A stretch of 42,456 nucleotides of DNA, taken from IMG/VR virus record IMGVR_UViG_3300028269_000007, positions 1 to 42,456 of that record. One strand, written 5' to 3'. Shown one piece after another: positions 19,825 to 20,884 of the stretch. Positions within the stretch are counted from its first letter, which is position 1, and every line of letters starts with the position of its first letter. Under the pieces are notes generated by a model. The model did not search any database and was not told where the DNA came from. It was given only the letters and a program-made list of their open reading frames with translations. Position numbers and translations under genes: made by a program. This DNA comes from a virus.

Positions 19825-19899
19825 GTGGGCATGGTGTAATTGGTAGCACATCAGCTTGTGACGCTGGCAGTTTAGGTTCGAACCCTAAGGCTCACCCCA
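19825..19899 (+). tRNA. tRNA-His (anticodon GTG)
   Basis: A complete cloverleaf can be drawn: acceptor GTGGGCA with GGCTCAC (one wobble, one mismatch at the base), U8, D-stem GTGT/GCAC with A14, G18-G19 and A21, anticodon stem TCAGC/GCTGG with loop TTGTGAC (anticodon GTG), T-stem TTAGG/CCTAA with loop TTCGAAC, discriminator C and encoded CCA. The base before position 1 is A, not the G(-1) that bacterial tRNA-His genes normally encode opposite C73. It lies between the ssDNA-binding gene and the methyltransferase gene. Confidence 0.85.
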
Positions 19900-19999: not shown

Positions 20000-20884
20000 A
20001 TGACAGTCTGGTACAACGAGTTCGACCCCTACGCGGCGGACTGGCTGGAAAATCTCATCGCTTTTGACATGATCCCGGCCGGCGTCGTGGACCGTCGCAG
20101 TATCGTGGACGTTCGCCCGGAAGACCTGAAAGGATTTACGCATTGCCATTTCTTTGCCGGTATCGGCGGATGGGCGCACGCCCTCAACCTCGCGCGGTGG
20201 CCCCTTGATCGCCCTGTATGGACCGGAAGCTGCCCCTGTCAACCCTTCAGCGCCGCCGGAAAGCGCAAAGGCGTCGCAGACGAGCGCCACCTGTGGCCAG
20301 AGTTCCGTCGCCTCATCGCGGAGTGCGCTCCTGCAACAGTCTTTGGAGAACAGGTTGCGAGCACGGATGGCCGCACATGGCTCGCCGGAGTATCGTCTGA
20401 CTTGGAAGCATTGGGATATGCAGTCGGGGCCGCCGATCTGTGCGCTGCGGGCGTCGGGGCGCCGCATATCCGACAGCGGCTCTGGTGGCTGGCCGACGCC
20501 GAACGCATCCGACGAGAAGTGGCGGTACAGCAATGCGGCGGCGGCCGAGCGTCGGTTGTCGTCGGGAAAACAAATGAGCCTAGAGGCGGTGGCACAACTG
20601 GCCGGCTGGGCGACACCCACGACACGCGATCACAAGGACGGTTCGACGGACCTGGAGAAAGCTGGCGTACCGATCAACGGCCTGTTGGGCCGACAGGTCA
20701 GCCTGGCTTCTGGTCCGGATATGGCATCGTCCAATGCACAGACGGGAAAGCGCGCCGCTTTGAACCCGGCTCATTCCCGCTGGCTTATGGGGTACCCAAC
20801 CGAGTGGGACGCCTACGCGGCTACGGCAACGCGATCGTCCCGCAAGTCGCGGCGGAATTCGTAAGCGCGTATCTGGATATCTAG
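20000..20884 (+). CDS. Cytosine-5 DNA methyltransferase
   Basis: This is a 294-aa DNA cytosine C5-methyltransferase. Motif I F-F-A-G-I-G-G is at about 51-57, the catalytic P-C-Q in G-S-C-P-C-Q-P-F-S at 75-83 (nucleophile Cys), motif VI as G-E-Q-V near 115 (instead of E-N-V), motif VIII I-R-Q-R-L-W-W near 156 and motif X G-Y-G-N-A-I near 277. It probably protects phage DNA from host restriction. The segment at about 170-245 is unusually Gly/Arg-rich; that is where a second frame (+1) encodes another phage protein. The ATG follows GAGAGGGG. Confidence 0.88.
   Translation: MTVWYNEFDPYAADWLENLIAFDMIPAGVVDRRSIVDVRPEDLKGFTHCHFFAGIGGWAHALNLARWPLDRPVWTGSCPCQPFSAAGKRKGVADERHLWPEFRRLIAECAPATVFGEQVASTDGRTWLAGVSSDLEALGYAVGAADLCAAGVGAPHIRQRLWWLADAERIRREVAVQQCGGGRASVVVGKTNEPRGGGTTGRLGDTHDTRSQGRFDGPGESWRTDQRPVGPTGQPGFWSGYGIVQCTDGKARRFEPGSFPLAYGVPNRVGRLRGYGNAIVPQVAAEFVSAYLDI
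20154..20864 (+). CDS. Overlapping +1-frame gene in the methyltransferase (phage WPTP/NPAHSRWLMG family)
   Basis: The frame is open for 236 codons, +1 to the methyltransferase. Its product has strong landmarks of a phage protein family usually seen as a separate ORF: S-P-E-Y-R-L-T-W-K-H-W-D, S-G-P-P-I-C-A-L-R-A-S, G-W-P-T-P-N-A, T-R-D-H-K-D-G, N-G-L-L-G-R-Q-V, and L-N-P-A-H-S-R-W-L-M-G-Y-P near the end. These match that family in order, so the frame is unlikely to be chance. A TTG at 20154 is the first in-frame start; another TTG near 20205 fits the family start (L-I-A-L-Y-G-P-E-A-A-P) better. Methylation-related function is often assumed for the family. Confidence 0.65.
   Translation: MPVSADGRTPSTSRGGPLIALYGPEAAPVNPSAPPESAKASQTSATCGQSSVASSRSALLQQSLENRLRARMAAHGSPEYRLTWKHWDMQSGPPICALRASGRRISDSGSGGWPTPNASDEKWRYSNAAAAERRLSSGKQMSLEAVAQLAGWATPTTRDHKDGSTDLEKAGVPINGLLGRQVSLASGPDMASSNAQTGKRAALNPAHSRWLMGYPTEWDAYAATATRSSRKSRRNS

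Follow-up and report, generated by a model that had tools for sequence, protein, structure and literature searches.

C5-cytosine methyltransferases have been reconstituted from 2 polypeptides in the cases of M.AquI, M.EcoHK31I, split M.HhaI, and M.SssI. M.AquI (CYCGRG) consists of 2 polypeptides, the second of which contains the distal variable region, motif IX, and motif X. The multispecific C5 methyltransferases of the Bacillus phages SPbeta, phi3T, rho11, and H2, associated with the work of Trautner, Lange, and Wilke, contain several small exchangeable target-recognition domains (TRDs) in tandem. Lee, Kam, and Shaw are said to have reported in 1995 that the gene for the alpha subunit of M.EcoHK31I also encodes the beta subunit, in an alternative frame. 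M.EcoHK31I from E. coli (YGGCCR) is a natural two-polypeptide C5 methyltransferase, in which the large subunit has motifs I–VIII and X and the small subunit has motif IX; its TRD was reported in the large subunit, and it has one specificity (PMC3404938).

The window that we analysed is a DNA stretch of 42,456 bases from an IMG/VR virus record, which has a podovirus-like gene set. An ORF on the plus strand (20000–20884), located between the tRNA-His/ssDNA-binding gene and the family A DNA polymerase, encodes the catalytic subunit of a C5-cytosine methyltransferase, and a second frame, +1 relative to the first, is open on the same strand over 20130–20864. We designate the 2 products alpha and beta, respectively. 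The tRNA-His (gtg) gene is located at 19825–19899, directly 5′ of the methyltransferase genes. The 2 frames, which share a strand of this DNA, very probably encode the subunits of a split C5-cytosine DNA methyltransferase, in which alpha is responsible for catalysis, beta provides motif IX and the target-recognition cassettes, and the 2 chains are translated separately and then assembled. In its motif layout, the locus is similar to M.EcoHK31I: alpha carries motifs I–VIII and X, motif IX is in the small subunit, and beta is nested in the +1 frame inside alpha, with both under selection. The locus differs from M.EcoHK31I in that (i) a cassette array is located in the small subunit and (ii) the region of alpha over the cassettes is predicted to be disordered and is poorly conserved. 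It differs from M.AquI in that motif X of the window is located in alpha. By contrast, the Bacillus phage enzymes, which are likened here by description, are single chains encoded in a single frame.

Alpha, beta, and their motifs

The alpha ORF encodes 294 residues, and its ATG is preceded by the SD-like sequence GAGAGGGG. Alpha matches PF00145 (E = 2.8e-15) and, by profile, phrog_363 (E = 2.7e-79). It includes motif I (FAGIGG, 20153–20170), motif IV with the catalytic cysteine (PCQPFS, 20234–20251), a variant of motif VI (GEQV, 20345–20356), motif VIII (RQRLWW, 20471–20488, assigned by sequence and profile alignment), and motif X (GYGNAI, 20819–20836, assigned by alignment). In an alignment of 66 homologues, Cys80 is invariant, as are the adjacent P79 and Q81, and G116, E117, Q118, and V119 of motif VI are invariant as well. 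Throughout the alpha subfamily, GEQV replaces the ENV of ordinary C5 methyltransferases as motif VI. The AlphaFold2 model of alpha, which matches M.HaeIII/M.HhaI in Foldseek (E about 5e-9), is confident for the catalytic domain and for the C-terminal helix (residues 281–292) that follows motif X; residues 181–276 are mostly of low confidence, with pLDDT values mostly below 55 over residues ~181–233 and below 50 over residues 262–276.

Profile comparison with the ordinary C5 methyltransferases of the same bacteria aligned alpha over motifs I–VIII only (E = 5.3e-17), and the alignment with M.HhaI spans residues 71–175. Alpha has motifs I, IV, VI (as GEQV), and VIII and the class I MTase fold of the PF00145 enzymes; as judged from these comparisons, it lacks the motif IX and TRD that such enzymes have in the same polypeptide. 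The original prediction had described the frame 0 product as a complete C5 methyltransferase. The elements it cited (FAGIGG, PCQ, QRLWW, and GYGNAI) are all present, but the product is not complete because motif IX and the TRD are absent from it. The Gly/Arg-rich part of frame 0, which had been taken for the target-recognition region, instead belongs to a predicted disordered filler (20495–20809) lying over the beta cassettes and beta motif IX, and the target-recognition part would be the +1 product. Alpha has been retained, and its insert between motifs VIII and X is long and varies in length, which could suggest that alpha is active as a methyltransferase by itself, with a novel TRD, and that beta only modulates its specificity. 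We regard this as highly improbable, since the insert is predicted to be disordered and evolves as filler, and motif IX is found in beta and not in alpha.

The beta frame opens after a TGA at 20127–20129 and is closed by a TAA at 20862–20864. Counted from a TTG, the +1 ORF spans 20154–20864 as predicted, and each of its proposed landmarks (WKHWD, GWPTP, RDHKDG, NGLLGRQV, and NPAHSRWLMG) is present exactly as claimed. The conserved core of beta, the putative specificity subunit (20313–20861, 183 residues), begins at alpha codon 105, from which conservation exceeds that imposed by alpha. The core includes (i) an N-terminal module (20331–20459) composed of a helix (LQQSLENRLRARM) and a hairpin (YRLTWKHWD/ICALRASG), delimited by conservation and by AlphaFold2 blocks with pLDDT values of 74–89; (ii) an array of 2 cassettes, of which cassette 1 (WPTPNASDEKWRYSNAAAAERRLSSGKQMSLEAVAQLAG, 20490–20606) belongs to family T38, also found in loci L017 and L076 in other combinations, and cassette 2 (WATPTTRDHKDGSTDLEKAGVPINGLLGRQVSLAS, 20607–20711) belongs to family T1, found in 36 loci at array positions 1 to 5; and (iii) motif IX (LNPAHSRWLMGYPTEW, 20760–20807), which was aligned to motif IX of ordinary enzymes and of single-chain/split relatives. 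Beta matches phrog_1008 (E = 9.3e-27) and also phrog_31772, and these 2 families are matched by 79 of 79 members of the beta family. The central claim of the original prediction, that 2 conserved phage protein families share this DNA in different frames, is thus borne out by phrog_363 and phrog_1008 and by the homologue tests described below.

Selection on both frames and the translation of beta

Loci found with an alpha query and with a beta query yielded a set of 96 non-redundant alphas (<80% identity). In the null model, alpha codons were replaced synonymously without phylogeny, for which the differences between frames and between parts of the gene serve as the control. For the window alone, the +1 frame was open over codons 44–286 in 0.5% of the alpha-synonymous randomisations, so that its openness is only a mild surprise, and the motif LNPxxxxWLMGxP was recovered in 0 of 20,000. 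Across the 96 homologues, only 2 +1 stops occur over alpha codons 44–270, compared with about 327 expected from alpha-synonymous randomisation, and stops in the +2 frame are not depleted over the same codons. A long open +1 frame is kept in nearly all homologues; in the +2 frame, open stretches of more than about 100 codons are rare. The similarity of beta residues exceeds the randomised expectation with z values of 2–12 over codons 1–104, which also reflect shared ancestry since they are equal in the +2 frame, and of 23–45 over codons 106–165, and it peaks at 84 over codons 256–270, where beta reads PAHSRWLMGYPTEWD (NPAHSRWLMGYPTEW). The per-codon rise in beta conservation starts at codon 105 (nt 20313). 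In the reverse test, in which beta codons were randomised synonymously, alpha was also constrained beyond beta, including over motif X; the alpha stop count of zero is partly conditioned because alpha ORFs were picked for being open. Both frames are under purifying selection, and their overlap is conserved.

In a sequence as GC-rich as this one, the chance that the +1 frame is open over codons 105–270 is by itself 3.6%, which is compatible with a frame that is open only through high GC content and codon bias, the beta family then being a spurious methyltransferase translation. This explanation is hardly credible and is already refuted by the depletion of stops in 96 sequences and by conservation far beyond codon bias, together with the wobble pattern in the beta frame and the in-frame homologues described below. 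The possibility foreseen with the original prediction, that the +1 frame might match nothing other than spurious methyltransferase translations, is contradicted by in-frame and non-overlapping homologues in related enzymes.

The translation of beta is the weakest point of the split-enzyme reading. In most homologues, stop avoidance in the +1 frame begins near codon 37–44; among the 96 homologues, stops over codons 37–43 amount to about a third of the expected number, and most have ATG codons in the beta frame enriched near alpha codons 31, 37, and 41. The beta-frame TGA of the window at 20127–20129 (alpha codon 43) is the sole stop there among the 96 homologues, and the first ATG in the beta frame of the window does not occur before 20367. 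The beta start in the window is uncertain because of these 2 features, and the TGA implies that it is located downstream of 20127–20129 or is unusual. Candidate starts are a TTG at 20154–20156, which is not preceded by a clear SD sequence, and an internal TTG at 20355, which follows a GGAG (20345–20348) with a spacing of 6 nt (20345–20357). The internal TTG was rejected as the main beta start of the family, since beta is conserved upstream of it and avoids stops from about codon 37–44.

The +1 frame avoids stops upstream of the core (1 stop over codons 44–104, compared with ~47 expected) while its residues there are barely conserved. This pattern, together with the lack of an ATG before 20367 in the window, might point to programmed ribosomal frameshifting, by which the N-terminus of alpha would be joined to beta as a hybrid and the +1 frame would not be self-initiated. 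Such a hybrid had been proposed, along with a search for a slippery site. The search found no XXXYYYZ heptamer in the alpha frame, so that the hybrid is unsupported; the only 2 heptamers in any frame (20564 and 20744) are located inside the cassette/motif IX region. Moreover, a 0 to +1 hybrid would miss motif X, which is in frame 0, separate starts have been called by several phage annotators, and the enrichment of ATG codons near codons 31, 37, and 41 argues for initiation in the beta frame. We therefore consider frameshifting quite unlikely, and favor separate translation of alpha and beta from one message.

Homology of beta and the layouts of its relatives

Searches of beta against Pfam, NCBIfam, and, by sequence and by profile, the PDB gave no match. 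The AlphaFold2 model of beta is poor (pLDDT 69, pTM 0.28), and Foldseek found nothing below E = 2 among solved structures. Across the family, beta contains motif IX (LNPAHSRWLMGYP) and 1–6 swappable WPTPxxxD cassettes. In ordinary enzymes, motif IX is RRLTPRECARLMGFPD and motif X follows about 17 residues further on. The beta segment LNPAHSRWLMGYPTEWD aligns to the ordinary motif IX stretch LTPRECARLMGFPDTF, a direct match that is weak (E = 0.027 over 18 columns). The link becomes firm because single-chain/split intermediates connect nested beta to ordinary motifs IX–X: (i) beta motif IX aligns to FSEWMMGWPEGW of these relatives, which themselves align to motifs IX–X; (ii) the profiles of nested beta and of the single-chain/split relatives match along the entire core, motif IX included (E = 1.1e-11); and (iii) the single-chain/split profile matches ordinary methyltransferases exactly at IX–X (E = 6.1e-5). 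These profile alignments establish, at the level of sequence, the homology between beta and the TRD-IX region that in-frame C5 methyltransferases contain.

The absence of a Pfam or PDB match and a predicted structure unlike that of a TRD would also be compatible with overprinting, in which beta is a separate protein with a function of its own (for example, a regulator or an anti-restriction factor) that overlaps the methyltransferase by chance. This is very unlikely, since single-chain C5 methyltransferases contain the same cassettes, along with motif IX, in frame, alpha misses exactly these parts, and beta accompanies alpha in all 80 of the best bacterial loci. In the split enzyme favored here, alpha would bind AdoMet and carry the catalytic cysteine through motifs I–VIII and X, beta would add the motif IX and target-recognition cassette array that alpha is without, and we infer that the 2 chains assemble into an active heterodimer.

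The protein gp6 of the Mycobacterium prophage prophiFSIL01-1 contains all parts in one chain and one frame, namely motifs I–VIII, 4 PTPxAxD cassettes, LNPRFSEWMMGWP, and then motif X (CGNGVVPQQA), and its relatives include further single chains. The enzyme of the window is similar to gp6 and related Mycobacterium prophage methyltransferases in having such cassettes and motif IX, and differs in that the Mycobacterium enzymes either have every part in a single chain and frame or are split such that beta includes motif X. In 23 loci (L310–L332), which have the layout of M.AquI, the cassettes and motifs IX and X occur together in a second, +1 ORF that overlaps the end of the catalytic ORF. A second nested subfamily (26 loci, within L336–L366) has a +1 beta and motif X in alpha; it has its own beta N-terminus, and only one WPTP cassette is present in its example L336. 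When a tree was built from the catalytic region, these forms were separated from 3 ordinary enzymes (100/98), and their nested, tail-overlapping, and single-chain layouts were interleaved; the direction of change between single-chain and split forms is not resolved by this tree.

Several other layouts were observed. Loci L305 (2841–4944) and L308 (3350–4750) contain very long arrays of at least 8 PTP cassettes broken over 2 frames; in L308, a cassette is duplicated in near-identical form, and there is no overlap between the catalytic ORF and the main ORF for the cassettes. In Mycobacterium phage Llama, these parts are arranged in yet another way, with the methyltransferase encoded by 2 short consecutive ORFs (gp74/gp75, L285:1384–2143). 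Only a remnant of the methyltransferase seems to be retained in Latretium (L294).

The nested arrangement is general. GTDB genomes, one per species, were searched with the beta profile; in all 80 of the best loci, which come from Proteobacteria, Verrucomicrobia, Planctomycetes, and others, beta lies over alpha in the same +1 register, and phage records show the same overlap. The view that the +1 family is a stand-alone ORF in many prophages was not confirmed: stand-alone betas were sought in this search, and all 80 of these best loci overlap alpha. Both frames are annotated in K1ind1, PhiXhv-28, Jacopo, and Lily, and in Lily the second frame carries the annotation “g62 internal gene”; beta alone is annotated in PhiXhv-2, and alpha alone in E. 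coli ETEC H10407, though the core of its beta frame is uninterrupted. Apparent stand-alone beta ORFs arise because annotators keep one frame, and the stand-alone view most likely reflects such single-frame annotation. The same nested or overlapping arrangement is found in the Kagunavirus “C-specific methylase” and “Mte8-like protein”, in Paenibacillus phage Lily gp62/gp63, and in Jacopo gp56/gp57; in these records, annotators noticed the overlap and gave the internal gene no function beyond a methyltransferase label. Our literature search found no paper describing the nested phage methyltransferase family. The nested split C5 methyltransferase is widespread across many phages and prophages and is usually annotated in one frame.

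The cassette array and its implications

Between the N-terminal module and motif IX, beta is composed of 1–6 segments that start with W-x-T-P and have a median length of 35 residues (~35–45 residues). From 190 betas, 497 usable cassettes were grouped by average linkage at 45% identity into 155 families, 53 of which have at least 3 members. Combinations are distinct in 165 of the 166 multi-cassette betas. Cassette families change position, with 21 pairs of families seen in either order, and a single beta never contains the same family twice. The cassettes, as compared across these betas, are shuffled among loci, as would be expected of exchangeable target-recognition modules from the analogy with multispecific Bacillus phage methyltransferases.

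Inside the cassettes, the working frame is beta. Cassette pairs of the same family (n = 2,165) are 62% identical in the beta frame, compared with 34% in the alpha frame, and the nucleotide identities at the 3 beta codon positions (0.68, 0.74, and 0.47) correspond to normal wobble for beta; judged by these values, alpha is filler there.

Each cassette probably reads one short target, in which case the array would make the enzyme multispecific. The enzyme may methylate the phage DNA at several short sites and thereby shield it from host restriction, and by reshuffling cassettes phages could change which restriction sites are protected. On balance, we lean towards the broader view that a very large family of phage enzymes stores its DNA specificity as a shuffleable library of TRD cassettes in a second frame, where the catalytic subunit consists of disordered filler. 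Every cassette would then have to be open in both frames, and combined cassettes would give multispecific methyltransferases, the targets of which could be worked out one cassette at a time.

The family is a clean example from nature of extended dual coding on a single strand, over about 200–300 codons and in many sequences, in which one frame turns from functional to filler along the same gene. The single-chain, tail-overlapping, and nested relatives show how an enzyme can move between layouts. Because gene callers usually report one frame, many annotations lack half of this widespread phage enzyme, the specificity of which is not predictable from them. If the cassette reading holds, there is a code to crack: at least 155 families of cassettes are recombined into sets that are almost all unique, and each family would be expected to specify a methylation target.
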